The notes below the pieces were generated by a model. That model searched no databases. It was not told where the DNA came from and saw nothing but the letters and a program-made list of their open reading frames with translations. The translations under genes and the position numbers were made by a program. Positions 1 to 17,019 of a stretch of DNA of 50,289 nt are shown here, piece by piece. Source of the stretch: Candidatus Stoquefichus massiliensis AP9 (GTDB lineage Bacteria > Bacillota_I > Bacilli_A > Erysipelotrichales > Coprobacillaceae); contig NZ_HG005294.1 in the NCBI RefSeq assembly GCF_000455285.1, positions 1-50,289 on the forward strand, written 5' to 3'. Every line of letters starts with the position of its first letter. Positions within the stretch are counted from its first letter, which is position 1.

Positions 1-921
1 ATTATAGCCCATATTTATCCAACCATGAATTAATTCTAGTAACTTATAATCAAACATTGGGTTACTAAATGTACGTAAAGAATTATATTTAGATAATTTC
101 GTAATATTTTCCTCAATTAAAACTAGTGACTCATCTTTATGTTCACTTTCTATAAGATTTTTAATTTTTAGTAAGACATACATAAGATCATGCTTTGTTT
201 GAACTATTTGGTATGACAATTTTGCTGTTTCATTATATAAGTCTTTTGAATATTTGCTTTTTAATAACTCATTATTAAGATAAATATTATTATGATAATT
301 AAATATCATGTTATAGTATAGTATAAAAAAAGTGATAGTTAATAAAATAAATAAAATCAGTAAATTATATATAATTTGTGTGTTTATAGAATTGTAAAAT
401 ATAGATTCATATAATATGGTAAATGTTGATAATAAGAAGAAAGTAAAGAAACAAAATGGCAACCAATCATTATTTTTTAATACTTTTTCTTCCTTTTTTT
501 CAATTTTGAAGAATAAAAATCCCAGAATAAAAAACAGTATTCGAGATATTAATGAAACACTAACAATAGAAATAGTTGTAGAACTTATATTTTGAGGACT
601 AATTTTAAAAATAAAACAAACAATAAATAATGATATTGTATTTGAGATAATTAAGCATGCAATCAAAATAGAAGGTACAATAAAAAAATATAAGTTAAAT
701 TTCTTTTTATTAAATGATATAAATATCATTTGAGTAAATATAAGACATATTAATAATATGAAGTTATTCATAAAAAACTCATTTAAAATATAGGTCTCAC
801 ATATACAAAAAATAGATACCAATAACATAAATGACTTTTTTTCAATTTGAAAAATTTTAAAATTAAAGTAGGAAAGAATAAAATCTTCTAGAAAAATCAT
901 TACAAAATCAAATAAAATCAT
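1..921 (-). CDS. agrC: AgrC-like quorum-sensing sensor histidine kinase (partial, C-terminus outside window)
   Basis: The frame is open from an ATG at 921 to the window edge, about 307 codons, so the ATPase domain is missing. The first ~200 residues are a run of hydrophobic segments typical of a polytopic AgrC sensor. After them comes a charged linker and the motif QTKHDLMYVL, which fits the H-box of HPK10-type kinases (family form RHDxxNHL) with His as phospho-acceptor. The start ATG overlaps the stop of the response regulator gene as ATGA, so the two are translationally coupled. Known role of the family: binds the cyclic autoinducing peptide outside the cell and phosphorylates AgrA. The ligand here is inferred to be the product of the AgrD-like gene at 1892-2038. 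Confidence 0.85.
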   Translation of the reverse strand, partial: MILFDFVMIFLEDFILSYFNFKIFQIEKKSFMLLVSIFCICETYILNEFFMNNFILLICLIFTQMIFISFNKKKFNLYFFIVPSILIACLIISNTISLFIVCFIFKISPQNISSTTISIVSVSLISRILFFILGFLFFKIEKKEEKVLKNNDWLPFCFFTFFLLSTFTILYESIFYNSINTQIIYNLLILFILLTITFFILYYNMIFNYHNNIYLNNELLKSKYSKDLYNETAKLSYQIVQTKHDLMYVLLKIKNLIESEHKDESLVLIEENITKLSKYNSLRTFSNPMFDYKLLELIHGWINMGYN

Positions 922-1622
922 CGCAATAAAAACAATTCATATTCATTAATTAAATTATTTTGATATTTTCTTCCTACTGTATAAATTTCATCATCAATCA
1001 TTATCACTTTTGATTTTTTTACGTCTTTTGTATAATTAAAATTAATAACAAGATTTCTTTCAATTTGAATAAGATCTCGATAATTTATCCCATTCATAAA
1101 CTTTTCTAAAGATGATATTATTGTATAATCTTGAGTAGTTGTTTTTACTAGAATATCATGACCTATAGATAAAATAAATATGATTTCACCTAATTTAATA
1201 GAAACTTTTCTACCCTTAGAAGTTATTATTACTTTAAATATGTTATTTATAAAGAAATCTTTAGCCTGCTTAAAAACTTTAGGTGCATCTGTTTCATATT
1301 TGGATTTTCTAATAAATTGAAAAAAGCCAATAGATAATGCAGGAAAAACAAACTCATCATGCAAAGATATGAATATAGTTATCATATTAGGAAATAATCT
1401 TTTTAGATGTTTTATTAAATTTAATCCACTATAATTTGTTTGCAAGTCAATATCAACAAAAATTATTTCAATGGAGGTCAGAGATAATATATTATAAAAA
1501 TCACTAGTAAAAATTAATAACTCTATTGGATCATTTTGATTAAGAAATGAAAAACATTCCAAAACATCACTTTTCATTTTTTCTATAAACGATAAATCAT
1601 CATCAGCAATAACAACATTCAT
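918..1622 (-). CDS. agrA: LytTR-family response regulator, AgrA-like
   Basis: 234 residues. An N-terminal receiver domain shows the acidic pair in VVIADDDLS and a phospho-acceptor Asp in IIFVDIDLQ. The C-terminal ~100 residues form a LytTR DNA-binding domain (KVIITSKGRKVSIKLGEI ... IQIERNLVINFNYTKDV), as in AgrA, ComE and FsrA. RBS GGAGGG precedes the ATG. It is the first gene of a two-gene unit with the kinase (ATGA overlap) and lies downstream of the AgrD-like prepeptide gene on the same strand. Predicted role: activates agr and target promoters in response to the peptide. Whether it controls the lanthipeptide locus cannot be read from the sequence. Confidence 0.9.
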   Translation of the reverse strand: MNVVIADDDLSFIEKMKSDVLECFSFLNQNDPIELLIFTSDFYNILSLTSIEIIFVDIDLQTNYSGLNLIKHLKRLFPNMITIFISLHDEFVFPALSIGFFQFIRKSKYETDAPKVFKQAKDFFINNIFKVIITSKGRKVSIKLGEIIFILSIGHDILVKTTTQDYTIISSLEKFMNGINYRDLIQIERNLVINFNYTKDVKKSKVIMIDDEIYTVGRKYQNNLINEYELFLLR

Positions 1623-2835: not shown

Positions 2836-3366
2836 ATGAAATTAATAATTAATTATTTATTTAATAAAATCGGAGATAATCATTACGATAAAGAAGTATT
2901 ACTCTATGGACTTGAGGTTTTGGTGTATAATATATTTACACTTTTTCTATTGATAATAATTTCGTTGATATTTAAAAATTACTATTTTGGTTTTTTCTTT
3001 ATCCCTGTCTTCTCAATATTAAGAATTACAATAGGCGGATATCACTGTAAAACAATATATGGATGCACAACTTTAATGGCTGTTATTTACTCACTTACAA
3101 ATATTTTAATGCAGTTTAATTATTATAATTTAATTCTAAAAATAATAAGCCCCTTCCTTATTTTTGTTTTATTATTTATCAAACCGTCTGTAGAAAACAG
3201 AATAAATTTTGGGCAATTCGATGTTTACTATAAATATCTACTACAAGTTTTATTTATTTTATTTTATTTTGTTTTATTTAATTCAACTGCATTCTCCCCA
3301 GTATTTTCTGCATTACTTATTGTCGAAATAATGTATCAGTTATATTTAATTACTCATAAATTATAA
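2836..3366 (+). CDS. agrB: AgrB-like accessory gene regulator peptidase
   Basis: 176 residues, about five to six hydrophobic segments. The core motif ILRITIGGYHCKTIYGC contains His70 and Cys77, spaced by seven as the catalytic His77/Cys84 pair of S. aureus AgrB. The family cleaves AgrD at the membrane and forms the (thio)lactone. The upstream RBS is weak (an AGGAAA lies more than 30 bases before the ATG), and a short overlapping frame MGCLDTNEINN starts just upstream. Unlike classical agrBDCA operons, the gene is on the opposite strand from agrD, agrA and agrC and follows the Xre regulator. Confidence 0.88.
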   Translation: MKLIINYLFNKIGDNHYDKEVLLYGLEVLVYNIFTLFLLIIISLIFKNYYFGFFFIPVFSILRITIGGYHCKTIYGCTTLMAVIYSLTNILMQFNYYNLILKIISPFLIFVLLFIKPSVENRINFGQFDVYYKYLLQVLFILFYFVLFNSTAFSPVFSALLIVEIMYQLYLITHKL

Positions 3367-3510: not shown

Positions 3511-3834
3511 CTATATAAAAAGAAGTTAAGAGCATTGTCAAGAATTGAGCTGCTTATCATTGATGAATTTTTATTGACACCAACAACTACTGCTCAGCAG
3601 TCAGATATACTGGAATTACTTGAATTGAGATATAATAATCATTCAACAATATTTGCATCACCGTTTCTGCCACAGGGATGGCATCAGAATTTATGTGGCG
3701 CTGCAACAGCTGATGCAATTCTTGATAGAATAATTGCAAATTCTTATCTGATTCATATAAAAGGCTCTAAATCAATAAGAGCAAGAGAAAAAATATTTAA
3801 AGATAATCATAGTACATATTCGCCCATGATTTAA
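3511..3834 (+). pseudogene. IS21-family istB remnant (C-terminal part)
   Basis: The reading frame begins after a stop at 3508-3510 with LYKKKLRALSRIELLIIDEF, so no proper start exists. What remains is the C-terminal ~105 residues of an IstB/DnaC-like ATP-binding helper: LLIIDEFLL (Walker B region), QQSDILELLELRYNNHSTI, LPQGWHQNL and ADAILDRIIANSYLIHIKG. The Walker A part and the whole of istA are absent. It marks an old insertion between the agr locus and the lanthipeptide locus. Confidence 0.85.
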
Positions 3835-4054: not shown

Positions 4055-4672
4055 TTATAGACTCATTTTATTTATTATAAATCCTTCTGCATATTTCACA
4101 CATGATTTTATACCATTAAGCTTATCTTTAGCATCAATATATAACATTAAATCTTGGTTTCTCCTCATATACTTATCTATTTGAGAAGTATAATTTACTA
4201 ATATTTCTTTCTTTTTATCTTCATATTCTGTGATATCTATAAAGAGATTAGGTGTGAATTCAGCGCTTGTTAAAGATTCATAAAATATTAAATTTTTACA
4301 TATTGATTTAACCGATAAACAATTCTTAGCAATATTAATATGATCTTGATGAGTATCTTTAAAGTATTGGCAAAAAATTGTATCAATTTGGTGTTTTTTT
4401 ATTATATCTGTAATAAAGTCAATTGTTTCAGAACAGTGTAATAAATTCCCATCTTTAATTTCGCCTATTAACACTTCATCAATTTCCATACATAAAATAG
4501 CACTTCGAATTTCTTTAACTCTATCTTTATAAGTTTTTTGTTCCCAATTTCCTCCTTTTGTCATTACTAAATAAATAATTTTCTTCCCATGTTTTTTTAA
4601 TTTTAATAATGTTCCTATGCACCCTAATTCAATATCATCCGGATGTGCACCAATTATTAGTATATTATCCAT
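4055..4672 (-). CDS. PIG-L/LmbE-family N-acetyl-sugar deacetylase
   Basis: 205 residues. The zinc-binding motif AHPDDIELG is at residues ~9-17 and a second metal/active-site motif DTHQDH is near residue 109. This is the PIG-L family, which includes MshB, BshB and the teicoplanin GlcNAc deacetylase; these remove N-acetyl from GlcNAc-type sugars. It is the last gene of the lanthipeptide operon, 22 bases after the exporter, with RBS GGAGGAAATG. With a GT1 glycosyltransferase in the same operon, the simplest reading is that a GlcNAc attached to the peptide is converted to glucosamine. The substrate is inferred. Confidence 0.85.
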   Translation of the reverse strand: MDNILIIGAHPDDIELGCIGTLLKLKKHGKKIIYLVMTKGGNWEQKTYKDRVKEIRSAILCMEIDEVLIGEIKDGNLLHCSETIDFITDIIKKHQIDTIFCQYFKDTHQDHINIAKNCLSVKSICKNLIFYESLTSAEFTPNLFIDITEYEDKKKEILVNYTSQIDKYMRRNQDLMLYIDAKDKLNGIKSCVKYAEGFIINKMSL

Positions 4673-4694: not shown

Positions 4695-6485
4695 TCATTT
4701 TAGTACAATTCCTTCACTTTGAATCTTGTACATTTTTGTATATATCCCTTCATTTGACAACAATTCATTATGACTACCTTCTTCAACAATTTCTCCTTTT
4801 TCAAGAACTAATATTTTAGTTGCGAAATTTACGTTTATAAATCTATGAGTAATAATAATATTAATTTTATTACTATTATTATCATACAATTGTTTAAATA
4901 TTTCAAATTCCGATAAGGGATCCAAAGAAGCTGTAGGTTCATCCAAAATCATACAATCGGAGTTTTTCATAAAAAGGCGTGATAATCCCAGTTTTTGCCA
5001 TTGTCCACCAGAAAGCTGAGTTCCGCCATCAAACCAATATCCTACCTGTTGATCATATTGCTCTGGTAAATGTGAAATAAAATCTGCTGCTGCTGCTTTT
5101 TTACTACTTTTTATAATTTTATCTAATCTTGTTAATTCACTGATACTTCCAAATCCTATATTATCTTTAACTGTAAACTGATATTTATTATAGTCTTGGA
5201 AAAGAGTTGCTAAACAATTACGTAATGACTCCTTTTTTATATCCCTAATCTCTATATCATTAATTGTAATACTTCCTTCATAATCATCATATAAACCATT
5301 AATTAATTTAATCAAAGATGTTTTTCCAGAACCATTTTCTCCAACAATTGCAAGTATTTCTCCTCTTTTTACTTCAAAATTAATATCCTTCAAAGCATAT
5401 TCTTGTCTATTAGGATATCTGAATGACACATTTTTAAACTTAATACTAAATATTTCTTTTATTTCTTTGAAACCATCTTTATTTGTAGGTTGTAATTTAA
5501 AGAAAACCTCAATATTCTCCAAATACAATGAATCTTTATACATATTAAAAAAACTGCTTACTAAATTTTGAATGGCACTTTCAATTTTAGATGTGGTATT
5601 AATATATGTTATGGTTGTTCCAACTAACAATATTCCCATGCTAGATTCATATATGGCAAGACAAACTATGATAAAAGTAACAATACAATTAGCAACTTGA
5701 TAAATTCCAGAAAAAGTGGTTTGTTTTTTTAAAATCATAATATTTTCATCAAAAAATTTCTGCCTTAAAACACTAAATTGTTGTATCAAATAATTTGATA
5801 AATTAAATAATTTCACCTCTTTAATATACTCATCTTTTATTAACAAATGGGCTATATACCATGATTTTCTCTCATGATTTGTTCTATTCATTAATACTTT
5901 ATACTCATTTTTACTTATTGACGTGAAATATTTTGCAGCAATACATGATAATAGAACAAATCCAAGGATTAGGCTAGGATGCCACAACATTAAAATGAAA
6001 AATGCAGAGATCAAATTTATAATCTGACTTATTATTGTCAATGCTGATGTAATTATACTAAATGGTCTAATTCCTATTTCCTGTTCTGCTCTTTGAATTA
6101 TGTCATAAATTTGTGGATTTTCAAAATCTTGCATGTCAAATTTTAAAGTTTCTTTTAAAAATTTTTCATTAAGTCCCAAGTATAAATATTCTTTATATTT
6201 AGACAAAAGGAAATTATATACACTATTAATAATTATAGAAAGTAAACTTAATAGTAGAAAAACACCTAACCTTTTTCCTATCATTTTATTGGCAATATTC
6301 AATTGAATATAGTTTATTATTTCTTGAGTATTTATCATAGATATATAAGATAATAGTACATTTAATATACTAAGAATCATACATATTATAATAATGAAAA
6401 TTTTCAAATCAGCTAACAATGAAAATATATATTTTAATCTCTGGATAAAAAGTAATATCTTATCTTTTCTTTTTGTTTTTTTCAT
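4695..6485 (-). CDS. lanT: ABC transporter (TMD-NBD fusion), lanthipeptide exporter LanT-like
   Basis: 596 residues: an ABC exporter half-transporter with a six-helix membrane domain over residues ~25-320 and an ATPase domain over ~345-590. Walker A is GENGSGKTS (~residue 383), the signature LSGGQWQKLGLSR (~488), Walker B MILDEPTASLD (~513) and the switch His is in IIITHR. There is no N-terminal C39 peptidase domain, so it is the NisT/SpaT type that exports the modified precursor with its leader still attached, and a separate protease must remove the leader. The start overlaps the preceding gene by 26 bases. Confidence 0.88.
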   Translation of the reverse strand: MKKTKRKDKILLFIQRLKYIFSLLADLKIFIIIICMILSILNVLLSYISMINTQEIINYIQLNIANKMIGKRLGVFLLLSLLSIIINSVYNFLLSKYKEYLYLGLNEKFLKETLKFDMQDFENPQIYDIIQRAEQEIGIRPFSIITSALTIISQIINLISAFFILMLWHPSLILGFVLLSCIAAKYFTSISKNEYKVLMNRTNHERKSWYIAHLLIKDEYIKEVKLFNLSNYLIQQFSVLRQKFFDENIMILKKQTTFSGIYQVANCIVTFIIVCLAIYESSMGILLVGTTITYINTTSKIESAIQNLVSSFFNMYKDSLYLENIEVFFKLQPTNKDGFKEIKEIFSIKFKNVSFRYPNRQEYALKDINFEVKRGEILAIVGENGSGKTSLIKLINGLYDDYEGSITINDIEIRDIKKESLRNCLATLFQDYNKYQFTVKDNIGFGSISELTRLDKIIKSSKKAAAADFISHLPEQYDQQVGYWFDGGTQLSGGQWQKLGLSRLFMKNSDCMILDEPTASLDPLSEFEIFKQLYDNNSNKINIIITHRFINVNFATKILVLEKGEIVEEGSHNELLSNEGIYTKMYKIQSEGIVLK

Positions 6486-6903
6486 AACTTCTTCTTTTTA
6501 GTTCTGCTTCATGTAAAATATTCCATATATTTTCTTCAGTATTAATAATTTTCTCCAAAACATTGTATGGATCATTAAAATTAATTTGATTATCTTTCAA
6601 TAACAAAATAGCCTTTTTAAACAATTCTTTTGATACATCATTTTTTGTTCCCTCAAAATCAATAATTTCATTATTAATTAAAATAAGTTTAAATAAAACA
6701 AAATGTTGATTTTCTCCCATAGCAAGAGGTACACTATTCCATCCCACATTAATCTGTTTAATATTAGAGAATGGTATACATTTATATGGCTCCACTTTTT
6801 TCATCTTTTCAAAAAAACTTATTGGACAATATATTTTTAATTCTTTTTTTTCATCATCTATTTCCCATCCATTCTTAACATTACCTATTAATAAATTTTG
6901 CAT
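6460..6903 (-). CDS. Unknown protein in lanthipeptide operon
   Basis: 147 residues, soluble, no signal peptide. I do not recognise it. The first ~95 residues alternate short hydrophobic strands and read like a small beta-rich domain (KELKIYCPISFFEKM ... FSNIKQINVGWNSVPLAMG ... HFVLFKLILINNEIIDFEG), somewhat like bacterial PH-type domains. The last ~50 are helical and end in a basic tail. It sits between the reductase and the exporter (2-base gap upstream, 26-base overlap downstream), so it is an integral part of the operon. Possible roles are an accessory modification factor or self-protection; neither can be shown. Confidence 0.75.
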   Translation of the reverse strand: MQNLLIGNVKNGWEIDDEKKELKIYCPISFFEKMKKVEPYKCIPFSNIKQINVGWNSVPLAMGENQHFVLFKLILINNEIIDFEGTKNDVSKELFKKAILLLKDNQINFNDPYNVLEKIINTEENIWNILHEAELKRRSYEKNKKKR

Positions 6904-6905
6904 AA

Positions 6906-7646
6906 TTAATTTCTCCTTTCATATTTATCCTCTTTTTTATTTTTTCTTTTGAAGTATAACACTTCATTTATACTATCATACATTAAATATTCATTTTTCC
7001 AATATTGAACTTCACTATCATCTACATGTTGAAATTTATATCTTGAAAAATGTTTATGATAATAATTAAAAACATTTTTTAACATATCAGGAATTTCTAA
7101 TTTATTTTTTAAAAATAACTTTATATAATTACTTATATTTTCACAATCATTCTCTTTTAATTCTATTTTTTTATCCAAACAACTTAATTTTAAGTCGAGT
7201 GATATCCCCAAATAGCTATAAATCATTTCCATATACCCTTCAACCATTTCTATTCCTGAATTCGAACTGGTTGTCAATAAAATTCCACTTTTACCAAGAA
7301 ATGGCATACGATGATTTAGATAAGCAATTCTATCTAATAATACCTTAAAATTTCCAGGGATATTATTAATATAAACTGGTACTGAAAACACAATTACATC
7401 TGCCCATTTAATATCATCAATAAATACTGTTTGATCATCTTTTAAAATACACATACCAGTTGTAAAACAACGCTGACAACCTAAACACACATTAATGTCA
7501 TAATCAGAAATATATTTATATACTATATTGACTTTCTGCTTTTCATTTTGAAATTTTTCATTCAATATATCTAGTACATACTTCGAAAAGACTTCATTTG
7601 TTCCAAGTTTTCTATTACTACAAACTAAAATAAATATATTAGTCAT
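6906..7646 (-). CDS. NAD(P)H-dependent FMN reductase-like flavoprotein, possible dehydro-residue reductase
   Basis: 246 residues from the ATG at 7646, preferred because AAGGAG lies seven bases upstream; longer in-frame starts would run through the hairpin. It is a flavodoxin-fold protein: FILVCSNRKLGTNEVFSKY is the phosphate-binding region, the Cys-rich loop CLGCQRCFTTGMCI typical of iron-sulfur-flavoprotein/multimeric-flavodoxin relatives follows, then VIVFSVPVYINNIPG. It lies directly after lanA. Known LanJ enzymes reduce Dha/Dhb to D-Ala/D-Abu but belong to other families. A reductase encoded next to lanA therefore suggests, by inference, reduction of dehydro residues in the core peptide. 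Confidence 0.8.
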   Translation of the reverse strand: MTNIFILVCSNRKLGTNEVFSKYVLDILNEKFQNEKQKVNIVYKYISDYDINVCLGCQRCFTTGMCILKDDQTVFIDDIKWADVIVFSVPVYINNIPGNFKVLLDRIAYLNHRMPFLGKSGILLTTSSNSGIEMVEGYMEMIYSYLGISLDLKLSCLDKKIELKENDCENISNYIKLFLKNKLEIPDMLKNVFNYYHKHFSRYKFQHVDDSEVQYWKNEYLMYDSINEVLYFKRKNKKEDKYERRN

Positions 7647-7665
7647 ATTTTTCTCCTTAAAGAAG

Positions 7666-7694
7666 TATCGCCTATCTAGTATAGATAAGCGATA
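7666..7694 (-). terminator. Intercistronic hairpin after lanA (attenuator or processing site)
   Basis: TATCGC and GCGATA, then TATCTA and TAGATA, form a 13-bp stem with one mismatch and a three-base loop between the lanA stop (7703) and the reductase RBS. There is no T run behind it on the minus strand. Such hairpins after lanA commonly let only part of transcription through, or stabilise the lanA mRNA, so that the precursor is made in excess. Confidence 0.7.
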
Positions 7695-7702
7695 CAATCA
7701 AA

Positions 7703-7906
7703 TTAGCAATCGCTACTCTCTGTATAGTTAGATCCAGTAGTAAGTCCAGTAATAATTTGTGATGATGCAGTGAACAAACTTACAGTTGCTTCAATACAAT
7801 ATCCTGATGATGTAGTAACCCATGTTAAACTCATTGGTGATGGTTCACCTTCATTGCCTTCAGACCCAACTAAACCCAACTCAAAATCTTTTAACTTTTC
7901 AGACAT
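7703..7906 (-). CDS. lanA: Class I lanthipeptide precursor LanA (divergent)
   Basis: 67 residues behind the strongest RBS of the operon (AAGGAAGGAGATG). The leader begins MSEKLKDFELGLVG; DFELGLVG fits the F-x-L box that LanB and LanC recognise. An acidic, Gly-rich stretch (SEGNEGEPSP) follows, then a Ser/Thr-rich core starting MSLTWVTTSSGYC and ending TESSDC. The putative core has about 18 Ser/Thr but only two Cys (residues ~37 and 67), so at most two thioether rings are possible and most Ser/Thr could stay dehydrated, be reduced or be glycosylated. No NisP-type cleavage motif and no protease gene are visible. Confidence 0.85.
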   Translation of the reverse strand: MSEKLKDFELGLVGSEGNEGEPSPMSLTWVTTSSGYCIEATVSLFTASSQIITGLTTGSNYTESSDC

Positions 7907-7957: not shown

Positions 7958-9046
7958 TCAAATCATGAAAAATTTAAAATATAAATCTATTGAATCACAT
8001 GTTATTTGTTTTAATAAGGACTGAGCTAAAAATCCATTAACTACGGAACTTTCTTTTGCTGTCATGTCAGCACTTTTTTTAACATTTTTATATCTTTTAA
8101 TTATAATATTGTTAAATTCATTTTTTTCTTCCAAACTTATCATTTTTTTATAATATAAATTTTCTATCATTCTAATAATTCCAGAAATTCCAGAACATAC
8201 ATTTGAAGTTATTAGATCTCTATCAACTAAACAAATTAATTCCTTCATTTTTTCTTTTTCATAATCATAAGAAATATTTAAGATGGTCTTCGAAATTATC
8301 AATGTATATAATGTTCCTAATTTGCCATTACCCCAATTTAAATCATTTCTATTAATAATTTTTTGATTCAGTAAATTATCGTACACTTCTTTTTGCAGTT
8401 TTAAAATTATTTCCTTTTTTAAATTTAAATTTAGACAACTACTATTAGCAAGAAATAATAATAATCCTGAATATCCATGTGCTATTCCAGTAGGGATAGC
8501 TTCTTTATTAAATATTAAATATTTATCTATTTTCTTTATGATAATTTCTATAATGTTTTTTTCTAAGCCTACCATTTCTAAATAATTTAATATTCCTACT
8601 ATTCCTTTAAAGTAATCTAATATATTTGGAAAATTATTATTCTTTTTCATTATAATTAATCTAAAATCAACTTTTAATAAACTTTCTAAATACCATTTTA
8701 TTAATGTATTAATTTTTTCATATAATACATAATAATTTGAATCCAACTCTTTTAATACATAAAGCATATATCCTAATCCTGAATATCCATATCCTAAATC
8801 AAAAGATAGATGATAGGTATTTATTAATTTTAATAATAAATCAATTAAACTTCGAATTTCATTTTTATTATTAAAATATACTTTCTTATTTTCATCTTTA
8901 TCAATAGATACCAAACATATATAAATAACAACATCCCTATAAACTATAAATTTCTCTTCATCATTATCATAATGTATAATGATATCTTCATTATCAATTA
9001 ATATAGTGATTTTAGAACCACCAATATGTTTAATCTGTATTTTCAT
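7958..9046 (-). CDS. lanC: LanC-like lanthipeptide cyclase with altered zinc site
   Basis: 362 residues from the ATG at 9046 (17-base overlap with the glycosyltransferase gene). It is a LanC-type protein by its repeated Gly-rich helical hairpins: LGYGYSGLGYML (~residue 90), TGIAHGYSGLLLF (~188), NWGNGKLGTLY (~238) and NVCSGISGIIRMI (~284). The GxAHG His is present. The family's W-C-Y-G zinc Cys is Gly here (WGNG), and the C-H-G pair reads C-S-G, so two of the three NisC zinc ligands (Cys284, Cys330, His331 in NisC) are missing. The protein may be a structural partner in a LanBCT complex or a poor cyclase rather than a normal enzyme. Confidence 0.82.
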   Translation of the reverse strand: MKIQIKHIGGSKITILIDNEDIIIHYDNDEEKFIVYRDVVIYICLVSIDKDENKKVYFNNKNEIRSLIDLLLKLINTYHLSFDLGYGYSGLGYMLYVLKELDSNYYVLYEKINTLIKWYLESLLKVDFRLIIMKKNNNFPNILDYFKGIVGILNYLEMVGLEKNIIEIIIKKIDKYLIFNKEAIPTGIAHGYSGLLLFLANSSCLNLNLKKEIILKLQKEVYDNLLNQKIINRNDLNWGNGKLGTLYTLIISKTILNISYDYEKEKMKELICLVDRDLITSNVCSGISGIIRMIENLYYKKMISLEEKNEFNNIIIKRYKNVKKSADMTAKESSVVNGFLAQSLLKQITCDSIDLYFKFFMI

Positions 9047-10349
9047 TATCATCCATATACACTTTTTTAAAAACATTATTAACAACTTCTGATACATTAT
9101 CATAATCAAATGAAAGCTGCTTAAAATTTTCATCTATATTTATATCTAAAATTGATAATATATGGTTTTCAAAAAAATTCATTGATGAAGGAAATTTATA
9201 AGTTGTTATTCCAATTTTTAAATGTTCCAATATCATTCCATTTAATCGTTGTTCACTAGATATTGGAAATACTATCATTGGAGTCTTATAAAATATAGCT
9301 TCTTTTATGCTATTCATCCCTCCTGAAGTAATAAATATTGAACTATTTTTTAAGACAAATAATTGAGGCACTCTTTGTTTTACTAAAACCTTTTGATTAA
9401 TTCCCATTTCATTTACAATAGATTTTATTTGTTTTGTTGCCTTCCCACCAGAAATAATTATTTTATAGTTAGGTAATTTTTCATTTATTATCTTCAAAAT
9501 ATCACTATAATAGTTTATTTCTCTACTCATAAATGAACCTGTTGCTATATATATCAATTTATCCTTACAAAATCGTTTAATGGTATTACTTACATTTTTT
9601 TCAACAATGAAGTCACTTTTAGATGGTGAACAAATTAATATATTATTTCTATTATTGAGAATTGGCTGCAATGATTTCTGTGAGAATATAATATTGACTT
9701 TTTCTAATGGATCATATTGATAAAACGGTCTAATGTAATCTTCATTTAAATTACTAGCTGTCTCTTGATAAATTTTTTCCAAATGACTTTTAAAATTTAT
9801 TAAATATTCTTTTGGTACACTTAATAAATAGTCAACTATTCCCAAAAAGTTTGGTAAAATATAATTCCATGAATTCATTAAATAATCCCATGAATATAAA
9901 TTATTTGTAATATAACCAACAGTTTTAATACTTTCATATTTTTCTTTATTTTTAATTTTCATCCAATAGATATCTGTAGAATCTCTAAAGACAACATTTG
10001 GACAAAAAACATCAATAAATTCTTCGATTTTTAATGATACATCTTCATAATAGTTAAATATTCCGATTGAATCCTTTGATAAAAATTCGTCATAAAATTT
10101 TATAAAATCTTTTTCTTCTGCATAAGTAATCATTTTTTTATCTTTTCTCATTGCTTCTTCTCGATGCTTTTTTTTCCAATAGTTATTTGGATAAACAATA
10201 TAATTAATACAGTTTTCTTTACAGTAATCAATGTTCTGACTATTTATCAAACATACCACATCATGTCCCATACTTTGCAATTTAAGTATAAATGACTTAA
10301 TGGGAATAATATGACTTACTGCATAACTAGTAAGAAAAAGTATTTTCAT
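9030..10349 (-). CDS. GT1-family (UGT/MGT-like) glycosyltransferase
   Basis: 439 residues from the ATG at 10349, which overlaps the lanB stop as ATGA. It has a GT-B fold: the N-terminal acceptor half starts MKILFLTSYAVSHIIPIKS, and the C-terminal donor half has LIYIATGSFMS, then IIISGGK, LVKQRVPQLFVL and the nucleotide-sugar signature FITSGGMNSIKEAIFYKTP ... PISSEQRLNG. The family transfers sugars from UDP/TDP donors to small molecules, including antibiotics. Lying between lanB and lanC with a sugar deacetylase at the operon end, it probably decorates the lanthipeptide with an N-acetylated sugar. Donor and attachment residue are unknown. Confidence 0.88.
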   Translation of the reverse strand: MKILFLTSYAVSHIIPIKSFILKLQSMGHDVVCLINSQNIDYCKENCINYIVYPNNYWKKKHREEAMRKDKKMITYAEEKDFIKFYDEFLSKDSIGIFNYYEDVSLKIEEFIDVFCPNVVFRDSTDIYWMKIKNKEKYESIKTVGYITNNLYSWDYLMNSWNYILPNFLGIVDYLLSVPKEYLINFKSHLEKIYQETASNLNEDYIRPFYQYDPLEKVNIIFSQKSLQPILNNRNNILICSPSKSDFIVEKNVSNTIKRFCKDKLIYIATGSFMSREINYYSDILKIINEKLPNYKIIISGGKATKQIKSIVNEMGINQKVLVKQRVPQLFVLKNSSIFITSGGMNSIKEAIFYKTPMIVFPISSEQRLNGMILEHLKIGITTYKFPSSMNFFENHILSILDINIDENFKQLSFDYDNVSEVVNNVFKKVYMDDNENTD

Positions 10350-12790
10350 TTCTTCATCACTCCCTTTCCTTTTGAGAGAAAACATTTTAAGCTGTAATAT
10401 ATACTCTCTATATTAGCCATTGTTTCATTTTCAATAGATCTATTTATTCCAATAGTTCTATTAAAGTTCATATGAAAAAGACTTAATAGAATATCTTTAT
10501 AGTTTTCTTTTTCTACTATTATTTGCATTAAGGAATTTAACTTGTTAACTAATACTATATTTTCCTGATATATATATAAGTAATGTTTGTTATATAAACC
10601 TTTATAAATATCAAAAATTTTTTTTCTTAGCAAATCAGTTGTTTTATTTCTTTTATAATACTCTTTATATTCTTTTAATAATTCATCAACATCACAATAA
10701 TTTTCAATTTGTTTTAGTAAATCAAAAGTCCAAAAATAATATAAATCTTGTTTCAATTCTTTATCAGGATATGCATAATTAATGATTTTTTTACTTAACT
10801 CTGAGGTTATCATAAAAATTTCCTCAATTTTTTTTATAAGTTCTATTCCTCCATATCTATTAATCTCTGGCATATATTCATCAATAATGCACTTATCAAT
10901 AATTTTTTGTTTTTCTAAAGTAGCAATCATTTTATCAATTTTAGAAAACATAAAATTTTCTTTTTTTATTCTAATTCTAAGATGGCTTTCAGGATCTTTA
11001 TATCGTAAATAAAATATATTTCCTTTTATATCACCACTTGCAAATTCCTTTAAATGATTAATAATAAAATTATCCATATAATCTTCCTTCATATATAATT
11101 TTAAACTAATCCAATCTCTATTAACTTTGAAAATATGTTTTTTATACTTCGGAGATATACTATTCTCCCCACTACAATTTATTTGAAAAATTGTCTCAAA
11201 AATATATTTTTTGTTATTTTTTATTTCTGATAAAAGAAGTTCATCTTCGTTAAAATCACATGTCCTAATATTAATTTTCTTTTTTTGATTTAACTCTTTT
11301 CTTAAAATTTCTAATTCATCATCATTTGATAAATTTAAAATCAAGTAATTATCTTCCGTTCCACAATATACTATATTTTTCATACTATAATTAGTTAACA
11401 AACTATTTATTTCTTTTTTAAATATCAATATATTGTCAATTGTAAAATTTTCTTTTAATAATCGTATTTCAAATGTTTTTAATATGAAATTTTTATAAGT
11501 TATTTTCGGACAAATTTTTGACCCTTTAAAAGTTTCAAAAATTTGTGAAAAAATACTTAATAAATTTTTTTTTGAACATTGATCAATAGTATAAATAGAT
11601 TTTATAATATCAGGTGCGAAATTTAAGTTCGTCATATTGTTAATAGTAAAATTAATAATGTGTCCATTTAACCCATTAATGAATTTTAAAATTCCATTTA
11701 TTGGACAAATATAAACATCATTTATAGATAATCTTTTCTTTCCTTCGACTATTGTTTCACATCCATATTCTAAATAATATTCACTATCACTATAGCAATT
11801 TAATACATTAGCAATTCGTGATTGTTTAGGAAAATAGCATAACTCAACATTGTCAAATTGATTATTAATAGACTTAATTTTACATCTTGCTTTGTAAAAT
11901 CTACCAAGAGCTTTATATGACATATCACTACCAATTAATGGAGTAACTATGTATTTATAAGTATCCTTAAACTTAAAAATATTTAAAGATATCTCAAAGG
12001 AATTTTCAGCTAATTTACTATTTTCATTATTATAATCTATTTTTATATCAGAAAGATCTAAATGATTATTATTTATTTTATAAATATAATTATTTATTTT
12101 ATTAAATAGATACTTGTCTTTTTGTGGAAATCCAATACCACTTATTTCATCAAACACATCAATAACATTTACTGAATCATAATTATATTTTTCTATATAT
12201 TTCATATAGTATCCTTCTAAAACATATTTATTATTAGCAAACATATTTAAAAAAATAACAAGTTCATTTATATCCTTTTTTATATTTGAATCTAAATTAA
12301 TTTTTTCTTCATTATACAAATCTACAGATACATAATTTTCTGATTCACTTAATTTTTTCAATTTTGATGTTATTTTAAAATAATCTTGTAATCCTTTTTG
12401 AATTTTTGATTGATTATAATTACTTATATCATTTTTTATTTTTTCAAGTTCTTGTAATTCTATATTTAATTCGTCTTTATACAATAGTATAACACTAATC
12501 AAATTGTCTATGTTTCGTTCATAAAGAAGAGATAATCTTAAATTTGAAATTAAAAAACCATTTTTTAATAATTCATTTATATAGTTATATATTATATTAT
12601 CTTCTATCTCATTGTATTCTTTTCTTATTATCTTAATAATTGTGTTTATATCCACAAAATCTTTTTCGGCAATTTCTTGTATTATTAAAAATGGTTTATG
12701 ATTATTAATTAATATTTGAGTGTTTTTCAAAGCAGTTTGATTATGAAAGCAATCAATCCACTTATTCAAAATTAATTCTTCATTTAACAA
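10346..12790 (-). CDS. lanB: LanB dehydratase, major C-terminal part (after frameshift)
   Basis: Read here from a TTG at 12790, but the frame is open further upstream (IGKKLRVKVNNSLLLNEE), joining the N-terminal fragment across the A8 tract. It contains the rest of the tRNA-Glu-dependent glutamylation domain and, from about residue 540, the elimination domain: DWISLKLYMKEDYMDNFI, FYLRYKDPESHLRIRIK and the C-terminal helical repeat region. With one base added in the tract, the gene spans 10346-13215 as 956 residues, the normal LanB size. Known role: glutamylates Ser/Thr of LanA from Glu-tRNA and eliminates glutamate to Dha/Dhb. The stop overlaps the glycosyltransferase start. Confidence 0.88.
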   Translation of the reverse strand: MLNEELILNKWIDCFHNQTALKNTQILINNHKPFLIIQEIAEKDFVDINTIIKIIRKEYNEIEDNIIYNYINELLKNGFLISNLRLSLLYERNIDNLISVILLYKDELNIELQELEKIKNDISNYNQSKIQKGLQDYFKITSKLKKLSESENYVSVDLYNEEKINLDSNIKKDINELVIFLNMFANNKYVLEGYYMKYIEKYNYDSVNVIDVFDEISGIGFPQKDKYLFNKINNYIYKINNNHLDLSDIKIDYNNENSKLAENSFEISLNIFKFKDTYKYIVTPLIGSDMSYKALGRFYKARCKIKSINNQFDNVELCYFPKQSRIANVLNCYSDSEYYLEYGCETIVEGKKRLSINDVYICPINGILKFINGLNGHIINFTINNMTNLNFAPDIIKSIYTIDQCSKKNLLSIFSQIFETFKGSKICPKITYKNFILKTFEIRLLKENFTIDNILIFKKEINSLLTNYSMKNIVYCGTEDNYLILNLSNDDELEILRKELNQKKKINIRTCDFNEDELLLSEIKNNKKYIFETIFQINCSGENSISPKYKKHIFKVNRDWISLKLYMKEDYMDNFIINHLKEFASGDIKGNIFYLRYKDPESHLRIRIKKENFMFSKIDKMIATLEKQKIIDKCIIDEYMPEINRYGGIELIKKIEEIFMITSELSKKIINYAYPDKELKQDLYYFWTFDLLKQIENYCDVDELLKEYKEYYKRNKTTDLLRKKIFDIYKGLYNKHYLYIYQENIVLVNKLNSLMQIIVEKENYKDILLSLFHMNFNRTIGINRSIENETMANIESIYYSLKCFLSKGKGVMKK

Positions 12791-12825: not shown

Positions 12826-13215
12826 CTATTTTTTTTCAACCTCTATTAAAAACTTCGTTATCCATTCATAATCAAGTAATAGATTTTTCTTTAAACTATT
12901 ATATTGAAAACTATATGTTTTTTCACATGAAGTTTCATCTATAAATTTTCCAAGGGATACAAATGAGTTTATTCCAAATGGTGTTGTACGGATAGATGCA
13001 CGTTTAATATACTTAATCAACGATATAATACTCTGCCTCTGATTTTTTTGCTCTTCATATTCATTATTGATAGAGTTATACAATGATATCGAATTAATGG
13101 CTAAACTTTCCATAAAATTATTTTTAGTATATTCTAAAATATTATTACATTCATTAAAAATATCATAATTCAGTAATGGTGTTCTCACATAAAAATCATC
13201 TTCAATATAATACAT
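12826..13215 (-). CDS. lanB: LanB N-terminal fragment (before frameshift)
   Basis: 129 residues from the ATG at 13215, chosen because AAGAAGGAG lies seven bases upstream; longer starts lack an RBS. The sequence has LanB N-terminal hallmarks: DDFYVRTPLLNYDIF near the start and KRASIRTTPFGINSFVSLG (the R-x-T-P-F/Y-G motif) about 90 residues in. It ends LLDYEWITKFLIEVEKK at a TAG directly after eight A. Inserting one A continues the frame as EKKIGKKLRVKVN into the next segment, exactly as expected of an intact LanB. It is the first gene of the lanthipeptide operon. Confidence 0.85.
   Translation of the reverse strand: MYYIEDDFYVRTPLLNYDIFNECNNILEYTKNNFMESLAINSISLYNSINNEYEEQKNQRQSIISLIKYIKRASIRTTPFGINSFVSLGKFIDETSCEKTYSFQYNSLKKNLLLDYEWITKFLIEVEKK
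12829..12836 (-). other. A8 homopolymer at the LanB frameshift
   Basis: On the coding strand GAAAAAAAATAG: eight A end the upstream frame at TAG. Nine A would read E-K-K-I-G-K-K-L and restore the full gene. A second A7 run lies at 12818-12824. Homopolymers of this length are sites of strand slippage, transcriptional slippage and sequencing error. Confidence 0.85.
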
Positions 13216-13389
13216 AAAATTCTCCTTCTTTAAATATTTTAACCACATATCCACTTATTAATTTTTGAGTTAAAACAATGTCTTTGCCACAATTACACCT
13301 TATAATTTTTTTATAGAAAAATAAATATTTATAACGTAGTTAACAATTTATCGTCATAAAACACATTAATAAGTCATCATCTTCAACAA
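13216..13389 (-). promoter_or_regulatory. Upstream region of the lanthipeptide operon
   Basis: About 175 bases between lanB and the IS66 remnant must hold the operon promoter. On the minus strand an A/T-rich TTATAA-type -10 candidate lies near 13300, but I see no good -35 and no clear LytTR repeat or other operator. Confidence 0.3.
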
Positions 13390-14021: not shown

Positions 14022-14095
14022 ATAATTGTCATCTATGTCCAAAAATTTACATTTAAAAGAAAAATATGCTAAATTATAGACAGGAGGAGAGAAAT

Positions 14096-14497
14096 ATGAA
14101 AAAATTATTATTTTCAAGTATGTTTGCTTTAGCATTAATGTTAGGAGCAATTGGCTGTGTATCTGCTTATGATTGGACTCCAGGTGAAACTTTTATTATC
14201 CCTTCATGGGGTAAAATGAGTGATCCATCAGAAAATTCTATTGCAAAAACAAAGAATGACTCTTATGGATTTATCGAAGCCCTTAGAGATACTTCGTCAC
14301 TTAGTAAGTATGGAGATTATGTCTATGATGGTTCTTCTACGAGATTTTCTGATGACTATTATAAAATCCATGTAAACAATTATACAAAGGTTTATTATAA
14401 GTATAATGAGTCACGAAGCACTTTCAGAATGAGAGCTTGTGGAGAGAATTTCGAACCATCTTCTGGAACAGCAATTGTTGCAAGATTCTGTCAATAG
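14096..14497 (+). CDS. Small secreted protein with dedicated ABC operon
   Basis: 133 residues from the ATG at 14096, which has RBS AGGAGGAG six bases upstream; the in-frame ATG at 14066 lacks one. The N-terminus MKKLLFSSMFALALMLGAIG is a signal peptide; cleavage after VSA (before YDW) is likely, although AIGC could also act as a lipobox. The mature ~108 residues are Tyr/Ser-rich with two Cys (in MRACGENF and ARFCQ) that could form a disulfide. I do not recognise the family. The gene is followed by a partial terminator and an ABC transporter operon, an arrangement common for exported bacteriocins or toxins with immunity pumps; that role is inferred. Confidence 0.75.
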   Translation: MKKLLFSSMFALALMLGAIGCVSAYDWTPGETFIIPSWGKMSDPSENSIAKTKNDSYGFIEALRDTSSLSKYGDYVYDGSSTRFSDDYYKIHVNNYTKVYYKYNESRSTFRMRACGENFEPSSGTAIVARFCQ

Positions 14498-14611: not shown

Positions 14612-15415
14612 ATGAAAACAAATTTAAATCTATTCAAAAATATTATTCTTTTAATAATAATAATAATTTCTGGTACTTTTTTTGGATTAAATATGTTAAA
14701 TGGAATTTCTGTAAATGAATTTAATGAAATATACTTAAAGTTATGGGAACGTGGATTAAATGGAATATTTCTGGTATTGTATCTTATTATCATTTTTGAA
14801 CTTTCTGTTAGTAAATCATATTCATACATTGATAATAAATTTGACAAAAATATCATAATAAGAGTTGGATACAAAAAATATTATTTACAAACAATTATAA
14901 CAATATTTTTAAGTGCTTTTATTTATTCTTTGATAATTCATATTTCAATAATTCTTCTTATGAATATGTTTCATACTTTTGACTTTACAACTATCGCTAA
15001 AGAAAGATTCCAGCATATATATTTTTCTAATAATACATATTTAAATATTTCTATATTTGTATTATTATCAAGCACAGGAAGTTCAATTTTCTGTACTTCA
15101 ATATACCCATTCTTATACTTTATTAAGAACAAATATCTTTGTAAATTTATTCCTGTATTAACTTTTTTCTGTACAATTATTTTATCCTTTATCATATCTC
15201 CTATTTTTCAAAATTTTTTACTAAGTATAACTGGAAATCTTGAAAAAGCAAAAACAATATTATGTAGTATTATACCATCTAGTCTTATTGAGCCTGGTTG
15301 CGGTTGGTATTCTTATGCACTACTAGATTTTGTTTGTGGCGCATCTATTTATATTTTAATAATGTTATTTGGTTTTTGTCTTTTAAAAAGATATAGAGGG
15401 ATTCATGATGATTAA
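14612..15415 (+). CDS. Polytopic membrane protein, ABC-2-like permease
   Basis: 267 residues with about six hydrophobic segments: residues ~8-28, 50-66, 88-112, 145-165, 180-200 and 240-258. The arrangement (long loop after helix 1, a cytoplasmic segment SYSYIDNKFDKNIIIRVG after helix 2) fits ABC-2-type permeases, but no diagnostic motif is visible. It is the first of three membrane proteins around one ATPase at 15939-16547. The next gene overlaps its end by 11 bases, so all are one operon. Confidence 0.7.
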   Translation: MKTNLNLFKNIILLIIIIISGTFFGLNMLNGISVNEFNEIYLKLWERGLNGIFLVLYLIIIFELSVSKSYSYIDNKFDKNIIIRVGYKKYYLQTIITIFLSAFIYSLIIHISIILLMNMFHTFDFTTIAKERFQHIYFSNNTYLNISIFVLLSSTGSSIFCTSIYPFLYFIKNKYLCKFIPVLTFFCTIILSFIISPIFQNFLLSITGNLEKAKTILCSIIPSSLIEPGCGWYSYALLDFVCGASIYILIMLFGFCLLKRYRGIHDD

Positions 15416-15923
15416 TATAACTATATACAAAAATTATAAAAAGATATCTATTTTATATTTAATATGCTTTATTTTCCTATATTGGCAACTTATAAGTGCG
15501 AAAAATATCCCAATTGATTTAATAATAGTTATACCAATGCAATTTTGTATGACTATAAATAATATTTTTATTTTCCAGATTATAAATAGAAATAAAATCA
15601 TGAATCAAATTCAAAATTATATATTATTAAGGATTAACAAAGAGTCCTATACAAACACACTTATCAAAATAGCTATTTTGGATACAATTATAAATATTAT
15701 TGTTATTTATATTTTCCCCATTTTAATCTTCCATAATAATATTCAATCATATAGATTATATTTTCTATTCGTTTTAATAATTTCTCTTATATTTTTTATA
15801 TATGAAATGATTATTACTACAACATTATTTATTAAAAATACACTTATTAAATTTATTTTATATACTATTCCATTTATAGCTAATATAATAATACAATTAT
15901 ACTATTTTCAAAATTTTTATTAG
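15405..15923 (+). CDS. Membrane protein, probable ABC transporter subunit
   Basis: 172 residues, hydrophobic, about five segments. A charged stretch (NRNKIMNQIQNYILLRINKE) follows the second segment and resembles the cytoplasmic coupling region of the neighbouring proteins (RISKKRYTILIIKK at 16534-17019). The start codon lies inside the preceding gene's end (11-base overlap). Its exact family cannot be told. Confidence 0.65.
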   Translation: MMINITIYKNYKKISILYLICFIFLYWQLISAKNIPIDLIIVIPMQFCMTINNIFIFQIINRNKIMNQIQNYILLRINKESYTNTLIKIAILDTIINIIVIYIFPILIFHNNIQSYRLYFLFVLIISLIFFIYEMIITTTLFIKNTLIKFILYTIPFIANIIIQLYYFQNFY

Positions 15924-15938
15924 AAGAGAGGAACAAAT

Positions 15939-16547
15939 ATGATTACATTTAAACACATTAGTAAAACATTTAATAATTCTATAGTTTTAAAAGATATTGA
16001 TTTCACTATTAATGAAGGAGAAATTATTAGAATAAGTGGAACAAATGGATGTGGTAAATCAACCTTATTAAAAATTGCTACTGGTTTATTAAAACCATCT
16101 TCAGGAGAAGTAATTTATAATAAATTTAGTAATGAAATAGGAGCACTCATTGAAAATCCATCATTCATTGAAAATGAAACAGCAATTTATAATCTCAAAT
16201 TTCTTTTTAATTTGAAAAACAAATTCGATGAACCAAAAGTTTCTCAGCTACTAACTGAATTTAAATTGAATCCATACTCAAAAATACCTGTCAAAAAATA
16301 TAGTGTAGGAATGCGACAGAAACTAGGTATTATACAAGCTATAATGGAAAATCAGAAAATAATATATTTTGATGAACCTACTAGGGGATTAGATGAAGAA
16401 AGTGTAGAACTATTTTATAACTTAATAAATAATTTAAATAAAAAAGAAAACAAAACGATTATTATATGTTCACATGAACCTTTAGAAAAGATCTGCTTTA
16501 ATAAAGAATATGTAATTGCTGATGGTATACTTAATGAAAAAGTATAA
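15939..16547 (+). CDS. ABC transporter ATP-binding protein
   Basis: 202 residues, a single short nucleotide-binding domain. Walker A is GTNGCGKST (~residue 35), followed by the D-loop/signature region VKKYSVGMRQKLGIIQAI (a degenerate LSGGQ: YSVGM) and Walker B IIYFDEPTRGLDEES, with the switch His in IIICSHEP. RBS AGAAGAGAGG. This YSxGM-type signature is common in bacteriocin immunity/efflux ATPases such as LanF/BcrA. It energises the three membrane proteins around it; the transported substrate may be the secreted protein at 14096 or a toxic peptide. Confidence 0.88.
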   Translation: MITFKHISKTFNNSIVLKDIDFTINEGEIIRISGTNGCGKSTLLKIATGLLKPSSGEVIYNKFSNEIGALIENPSFIENETAIYNLKFLFNLKNKFDEPKVSQLLTEFKLNPYSKIPVKKYSVGMRQKLGIIQAIMENQKIIYFDEPTRGLDEESVELFYNLINNLNKKENKTIIICSHEPLEKICFNKEYVIADGILNEKV

Positions 16548-17019
16548 ATTTCTACTATACAGTAATTTTTTGAAGATTTTAGTATTATTTTTAACTAAAA
16601 ATATTGCTGAGTATAATAATATAGTGTATTTTCTGCCTACTAATTTATTACATTTAAGCATCAATTTATCAATATTAATTTTTGATATATTATTTATTAC
16701 TGATAGTATTCTTTATTATTTAAAAATACATGATTCTATACTTTTACGTATTAGTAAGAAGCGATATACAATACTAATAATTAAAAAAACAATATTATCA
16801 ACCATTGAAATTCTTATTTCACAATTTATTGTTGTATTTCTGTATTTTCATAATATCAATATTGAAGTTATTTTCACATATACAATTATATTATATTTAC
16901 TATATATAATATGTTTTACTTTGGTTCCTTCATGGATTAACAATTATAAATTATTAATTATTTTTGTTGTCATGCTAATGGTAAAATATATTCTAAAAAT
17001 TAATTTTATGGCATTCTAA
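16534..17019 (+). CDS. Membrane protein, probable ABC transporter subunit
   Basis: 161 residues from the ATG at 16534, overlapping the ATPase gene end by 14 bases; alternative starts lie at 16516 and 16522. About five hydrophobic segments with a basic stretch RISKKRYTILIIKK in the middle resembling that of the 15405 gene, so the two may be paralogous permease subunits. It is the last gene of the operon. The palindrome AATGATACTATCATT just after it (around 17034-17048) is a weak terminator candidate. Confidence 0.6.
   Translation: MKKYKFLLYSNFLKILVLFLTKNIAEYNNIVYFLPTNLLHLSINLSILIFDILFITDSILYYLKIHDSILLRISKKRYTILIIKKTILSTIEILISQFIVVFLYFHNINIEVIFTYTIILYLLYIICFTLVPSWINNYKLLIIFVVMLMVKYILKINFMAF

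Follow-up and report, generated by a model that had tools for sequence, protein, structure and literature searches.

In the available text of one study, zinc binds and activates the thiol in LanC enzymes and one histidine protonates the enolate; the position of Tyr285 in NisC (His277 in LanCL1, Asn in CinM and DurM) stabilises the enolate oxygen, and LanCL1 carrying the substitution H277N stays active (PMC9934072). NisC requires its zinc ligands, according to mutagenesis cited in a second source that was available in part, and is inactivated by the exchange Tyr285Ala; an alignment of 66 class I LanCs in the same source has the CHG motif in 98% and the WCYG motif in 95% of the sequences (PMC3091789). 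The zinc of class I LanC is taken as essential. A metal-free cyclase with the LanC fold has been described in class III, namely ThurKC, which has Ser, Phe and Asp at the ligand positions, replaces Asp141 and His212 as well, and forms part of a fusion with lyase and kinase domains, as far as the accessible portion of the report goes (PMC10604976). In the literature searched, which was available in part, class III was the only source of a characterised zinc-free cyclase of this fold, and among class I LanCs none lacking the zinc ligands was found to have been characterised.

A 2024 survey, in the portion available, counted 14 predicted peptides as ‘B-Unk’, that is, LanB together with a cyclase of undefined triad, and left them uncharacterised (PMC11251773). 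The clusters described here show the same combination of LanB and a triad-less cyclase, a likeness by combination only, the survey giving a count without members or residues.

Gene cluster around lanC

The window analysed in this study is a stretch of 50,289 nucleotides of Candidatus Stoquefichus massiliensis AP9 (contig NZ_HG005294.1). It contains a single minus-strand run of genes for LanB (in two pieces), a glycosyltransferase, LanC, LanA, an FMN reductase, a small protein, an ABC exporter and a PIG-L enzyme, in which the genes for LanB, the glycosyltransferase and LanC overlap end to start. The features of the cluster and its flank are as follows.

918-1622, minus strand: LytTR regulator (Pfam LytTR, 2.6e-8)
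2836..3366, plus strand: AgrB-like peptide processing protein (Pfam AgrB, 1.4e-18)
4055..4672, minus strand: PIG-L/BshB1-like de-N-acetylase (Pfam PIG-L, 1.1e-19; TIGR04001, 103 bits, below its cut-off)
4695..6485, minus strand: ABC exporter in the LanT role (Pfam ABC_tran and ABC_membrane; 52% identical to the copy of a Candidatus Stoquefichus relative)
6460..6903, minus strand: small conserved protein (alignment; present in 5/5 complete clusters)
6906..7697, minus strand: NADPH-dependent FMN reductase, LanJB-type (Pfam FMN_red, 1.9e-17)
7703..7906, minus strand: LanA precursor of 67 aa with a class I FxLx leader, two Cys and the C-terminus NYTESSDC (open reading frame; 78% identical to the Stoquefichus precursor; family alignment)
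7958..9046, minus strand: LanC-type cyclase without the zinc ligands Cys284 and His331 in NisC numbering (Pfam LANC_like and alignments)
9030..10385, minus strand: GT1-type glycosyltransferase, overlapping the lanC start and the lanB end (Pfam UDPGT, 4.1e-11; NCBIfam MGT)
10346..12790, minus strand: LanB dehydratase, larger C-terminal piece (Pfam Lant_dehydr_N and _C; catalytic columns retained)
12826..13254, minus strand: LanB dehydratase, N-terminal piece, separated from the rest by a frameshift in an A-run (Pfam Lant_dehydr_N, 7.6e-11)

As in class I clusters, a LanB with both Pfam domains adjoins LanC, and the precursor combines an FxLx leader with a core containing Ser/Thr and Cys. Unlike the class III fusion proteins, the window LanC is a stand-alone protein that carries no kinase or lyase Pfam domain and would work with LanB. 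The glycosyltransferase, whose true start is probably at about 10349, and the LanJB-type reductase are encoded in all five complete class I clusters found in this study, and the four of them with a zinc-less LanC have the glycosyltransferase, FMN reductase, small protein and ABC exporter in common. For the small protein a role in immunity is a guess. The PIG-L gene is present in three of the four zinc-less clusters, and its product probably acts on GlcNAc put on by the glycosyltransferase; the occurrence of both enzymes together suggests a GlcNAc that is later de-acetylated.

The FMN_red family has been named LanJB in lanthipeptide clusters, according to the part of the source available (PMC7268733), and by analogy the window reductase is predicted to turn Dha and Dhb into D-Ala and D-Abu. 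Two plasmids, that of lactocin S and one of Priestia, carry homologues of the reductase beside LanM. The LanJB-like gene of the lactocin S plasmid gives a 33% match to the FMN_red protein, which stands in a lanthipeptide cluster in both cases; however, the LanJB clusters seen are of class II, whereas the window reductase belongs to a class I cluster with a glycosyltransferase. Bicereucin-type clusters carry LanJB reductases.

The AgrB and LytTR genes flanking the cluster point to probable quorum-sensing control. Between agrB and the cluster lies an IstB (IS21) remnant (window 3535-3834), and by eye a similar IS21 remnant occupies the matching place beside one of the related clusters (L044 1948-2391).

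Zinc site and pocket residues

The lanC gene comprises 363 codons including the stop, giving a stand-alone product of about 361 aa; a longer frame opens at 9133, and the start at 9046 agrees with the relatives. The product matches Pfam LANC_like (PF05147) with E = 8e-12 and 44.8 bits, against a cut-off of 23.2 bits that the LanCs of two related clusters (L007, 71.3 bits; L010, 58.6 bits) also exceed, and by its sequence it is a LanC-type cyclase. In NisC numbering, Asp141 is retained in the motif DYFKG (Asp144 of the window protein). The earlier note on this DNA, made from the letters alone, had stated that the GxAHG histidine is present and that two of the three zinc ligands are gone, and the alignment bears out both statements: His212 is retained in GIAHG (His190 of the window protein), Gly239 replaces the ligand Cys284 in LNWGNG, and Ser285 replaces His331 in NVCSG. 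To this can be added that Asn240 replaces Tyr285, and that the third ligand, Cys330, is kept (Cys284 in window numbering), a point left unstated there, so that the positions of Cys284, Cys330 and His331 read Gly, Cys and Ser. All three ligands, within WCYG and CHG, are found in 10/10 canonical class I LanCs aligned (two of them nearly identical). Together with the published alignment of 66 LanCs, nearly all of which likewise keep the motifs, this argues that the window substitutions are not chance variation.

NisC, MadC and SpaC belong to the same Pfam family, and the zinc-less LanCs of the window and its relatives also adjoin LanB, LanT and a LanA with an FxLx leader and keep Asp141 and His212; they differ from these enzymes in lacking two or three zinc ligands and in having Asn in place of Tyr285. 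With ThurKC they share a LanC fold devoid of zinc ligands, but they keep the Asp141 and His212 that ThurKC has replaced and do not match its residues at the ligand positions. This set of residues therefore differs both from canonical class I and from class III.

The predicted model of the window LanC is weak (mean pLDDT 59.7) and was aligned by VIA-align to NisC first (Z 14.1, rmsd 5.4, 312 aligned). For the LanC of the Stoquefichus relative (L007; pLDDT 70.6) the first eight VIA-align matches are LanC-type cyclases (Z 17.0-13.6), followed by a match at 10.4; MadC is at the top (Z 17.0, rmsd 4.3, 323 aligned), and ThurKC is among them (Z 13.6, rmsd 4.1, 293 aligned). With Foldseek neither model had a match at E <= 0.001, and the fold assignment, with a low-confidence model for the window protein, rests on VIA-align; the alpha/alpha-toroid fold of LanC is thus predicted from the model of the relative. 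Searched directly against PDB sequences, the window LanC returned antibody matches only, regarded as chance, and a three-row LanC profile found MadC.

Distribution and conservation of the zinc-less LanC

Among 98 genomes, the window's own and relatives, two more carriers were found. One is a Candidatus Stoquefichus MAG of the same family as the window genome, placed in Erysipelotrichales and probably of gut habitat. Its cluster (L003/L007) is complete, with a 960-aa LanB in one frame and a precursor 78% identical to that of the window, and its LanC carries WGNG and CSG while being only 33% identical to the window LanC. In the other (L010), from the window's own genus, a LanC with WGNG and CNG adjoins a one-frame LanB of 953 aa. 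A LanB search of the order detected LanB in only 4/315 genomes. The fourth of these, G011, has two LanB clusters: one (L043) with a canonical LanC, WCYG/CHG, and one (L044), whose lanB is also in one frame, with a LanC reading GVAHG, WGNG and INGVSG, in which all three ligands are lost.

L044 11380-12576 (G011): extreme LanC variant, adjoining LanB and four precursor genes (no Pfam match)

Pfam found no PF05147 domain in this protein, and profile-based mining would therefore miss such a variant. With its canonical and zinc-less class I clusters, which contain the same accessory gene kinds, G011 offers a natural paired comparison.

A zinc-less LanC is thus encoded in 4/5 complete class I clusters among the 315 genomes, and all four proteins come from one bacterial family, each adjoining LanB and a similar precursor. 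They are only about 22-33% identical to the window protein, yet the acid-base pair Asp141/His212 is kept in 4/4. Nine canonical LanCs (Ssal, a near copy of Sequ, being left out here, in the LanB columns and in the trees) have 17 invariant positions, 12 of which are identical in all four zinc-less proteins. The five changed positions are Cys284 (Gly in 4/4), Tyr285 (Asn in 4/4), His331 (Ser, Ser, Asn, Asn), Cys330 (kept in 3/4, Ile in 1/4) and one Gly; the CHG region of G011 differs between alignments A5 and A6, and the reading that preserves GxSG was used. Three of the four proteins are also shorter, at 347-363 aa vs 402-452 aa in the ten canonical LanCs. In the LanC tree the four group together (88/86), with a very long branch for G011, and the LanB tree leaves one vs two origins of the loss unsettled (50/4).

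Whether homologues beside similar precursors share the substitutions had been named in the earlier note as the distinction between conserved change and decay. WGNG and the lack of His331 in 4/4 indicate a conserved change, and the sequence comparison supports a loss of the zinc ligands that is neither random decay nor private to the window strain. The same note would have given way to other Cys or His residues filling the metal site; no further Cys/His column is common to all four proteins in the four-way alignment. The sole such column is His212, and the only other one with Cys/His in at least two of the four is Cys330, lost in one, which makes a replacement metal site unlikely.

The profile of three LanCs identified 3/315 genomes of the order and missed the G011 variant, recovered by the LanB search, so this figure is an undercount. 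Across the class, a four-row profile matched 3/395 genomes, plus one weak match (6e-4, two stops) taken as chance. Coverage outside the phylum consisted of a contig pattern scan, plasmids and viral contigs. The scan of genome contigs gave 503 pattern stretches with one relative, the Stoquefichus record; the LanC search of plasmids had no match, the LanA search of plasmids gave eight records at E 0.7-0.8, judged chance, and LanC and LanA searches of viral contigs found none. A second, canonical LanC acting in trans was also considered, and none above the Pfam cut-off was found in the window genome (G000), G001 or G006, weak matches at E 0.016 and 0.046 being taken as chance.

Precursor peptides

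The last two thirds of the precursor contain 1-2 Cys and 10-19 Ser/Thr in the zinc-less clusters and in a cluster fragment in G041 (L067), compared with 3-5 Cys and 7-11 Ser/Thr in canonical clusters; the count covers 18 rows, several of them identical, and Scap, with no annotated LanA, is absent from it. A single, C-terminal Cys is found in the G001 precursor and in one of the four precursors of the zinc-less G011 cluster, while in the canonical sister cluster of G011 (L043) the precursor carries three Cys and a related ending, TEGC. The proposal, made from the window alone, that the loss goes with a Cys-poor precursor thus extends to the relatives, with 1-2 Cys beside a zinc-less LanC vs at least three beside a canonical one, including this contrast within a single genome. 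In every zinc-less precursor the C-terminal Cys of YTE..C is retained; in the alignment the family shares only this element, M1, the leader residues L5, F8 and L10, and one Pro. That Ser/Thr are in excess and an FMN reductase is encoded suggests reduction of many dehydro residues to D-amino acids in place of their use in rings.

Six distinct zinc-less-type precursors, counting that of G041, contain 10 Cys, of which 0/10 fit the strict labionin motif SxxSx(2-5)C. A labionin-type arrangement with Thr allowed fits 6/10 Cys (4/4 upstream, 2/6 C-terminal), but shuffled sequences often fit too (0.20-0.62) and the zinc-type sister fits as well, and it was rejected. The 4.4-kb contig of G041 (L067 1068-4091) carries a glycosyltransferase, an FMN reductase, a precursor with YTESEC and AgrB. 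The order-wide LanB search found no LanB in G041, and neither LanB nor LanC lies on this contig, which, coming from a fragmented assembly, is either a fragment or a degenerate cluster.

Divergence rates and the state of lanB

Between the window and Stoquefichus clusters, identity is 78% for LanA, 70% for the PIG-L enzyme, 56% for the glycosyltransferase, 52% for the FMN reductase and the ABC exporter, 50% for LanB and 33% for LanC; the regulatory AgrB, at 24%, is lower than LanC. LanC is thus the fastest-diverging enzyme of the cluster in this pair. The LanC/LanB identity ratio is 0.66, 0.87 and 0.81 in three zinc-less pairs (G011 left out, and the window LanB represented, as in the trees, by its 814-aa piece only) vs 0.86-1.27 in 36 canonical pairs from nine clusters, so that two of the three zinc-less ratios fall below all canonical pairs and the third is at the edge. 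Since identities of about 30% are near saturation, the window-Stoquefichus pair bears most weight in this comparison. The high divergence suggests that LanC is partly freed of constraint, pointing to a relaxed or changed function.

In LanB, 33/42 invariant positions are kept, including every invariant Arg, Asp, Glu and His, and dehydration is therefore expected to be functional, with a proviso for the interrupted lanB of the window. The split, a point absent from the earlier note, is a frameshift at an A-run (12826-12790) that may be a real mutation, a sequencing error or slippage; in a homopolymer, an error may be the cause. Because of the split, the window copy of the cluster may be silent.

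Possible function of the zinc-less LanC

Our leading but tentative reading is that this class I LanC works independently of metal: having shed the zinc half of its pocket, it would still handle the dehydrated peptide and possibly close one C-terminal ring. The half that was shed would be the thiol-activating one, and the retained half, with Asp141, His212 and Asn in place of Tyr285, would handle the dehydroamino acid; since Tyr285Ala inactivates NisC, Asn at this position may not function in a class I enzyme. From the ligand loss, the retained pocket, the gene content and the precursor pattern we infer the following steps, ring and order. The clusters would make Ser/Thr-rich, Cys-poor peptides, in which LanB would dehydrate Ser/Thr, the LanJB-type reductase would convert some dehydro residues to D-amino acids, and the glycosyltransferase would attach a sugar that the PIG-L enzyme, where present, would de-N-acetylate. 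LanC would bind the dehydrated peptide and, in a metal-free reaction, close no more than one or two rings, for which the C-terminal Thr...Cys of YTE(x)2-3C is the conserved candidate, and the ABC protein would export the product. The more specific idea of a split pocket, a metal-free class I catalyst on dehydro residues that either closes a single substrate-assisted C-terminal ring or protonates the enolate after hydride transfer from the reductase, is rather unlikely.

The leading idea of the earlier note was a catalytically dead LanC, serving as a scaffold or chaperone for LanB, the transporter and the leader, with rings absent or formed without enzyme help; this is nearly as probable as the leading reading above. 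It fits with metal ligands lost in 4/4 while the gene remains open, full length and beside LanB, and with the rank of LanC as the fastest-diverging enzyme, but a pure scaffold would need neither Asp141 and His212 nor the Asn fixed at position 285, all present in 4/4, and every precursor has its C-terminal Cys. The three pocket residues argue for more than a scaffold and the fast divergence argues the opposite, and our preference goes narrowly to a LanC that handles the dehydrated peptide without metal, over a pure scaffold. The overall reading of the earlier note therefore stands as regards a conserved loss, no substitute ligands and a Cys-poor precursor, while scaffold, uncatalysed closure and metal-free catalysis are all still candidates.

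It is improbable that the cluster is being lost and that LanC has changed without selection. The frameshift in the window lanB, the high divergence of LanC and the G041 contig, where only a glycosyltransferase, an FMN reductase and LanA accompany AgrB, are in line with such ongoing decay, but the WGNG state recurs with open frames across four lineages, three of which have an intact LanB, the invariant glycines, Trp, Asp and His are retained, and the lanB split lies in a homopolymer. Slightly less probable still is a pocket repurposed to act with the LanJB-type reductase, or with another nucleophile, on dehydro residues instead of joining Cys. The electrophile half is indeed kept and the thiol half lost, a LanJB-type gene accompanies every complete cluster, and Ser/Thr far outnumber Cys; however, reductase and glycosyltransferase are likewise encoded in the sister cluster, whose LanC is canonical, and LanJB proteins are not known to need such a partner. 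Metal binding through alternative Cys/His ligands is very improbable, for although each zinc-less LanC has further Cys and His and neither model (mean pLDDT 59.7 and 70.6) resolves the metal site, the His212 column alone has Cys/His in 4/4.

A class I lineage devoid of the metal site but retaining the acid-base pair, one of whose genomes also carries a zinc-bearing sister cluster, amounts to a natural experiment on the roles of the two pocket halves. It could tell whether selection maintains catalysis by LanC, or its scaffolding alone, where the product contains one or two Cys. From the clusters, gut bacteria are predicted to make Cys-poor peptides that bear D-residues and an amino sugar; for class I, no description of such a product was found in the literature searched, available in part.

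Other features of the window

Beside lanB, an ABC ATPase gene on the plus strand and genes for three small membrane-like proteins occupy window 14612-17019 and are perhaps involved in immunity (LanFEG-like); the three small proteins had no Pfam match. Adjoining these putative immunity genes, window 14066-14497 encodes a secreted-looking protein of 143 aa with a signal-like N-terminus and no clear family in Pfam and NCBIfam searches. Two reverse transcriptases are encoded farther along (window 27032-28849 and 30427-32280), the first with group II intron maturase and HNH domains, and both lie inside what appears by eye to be a conjugative element at about 17.8-49.4 kb.
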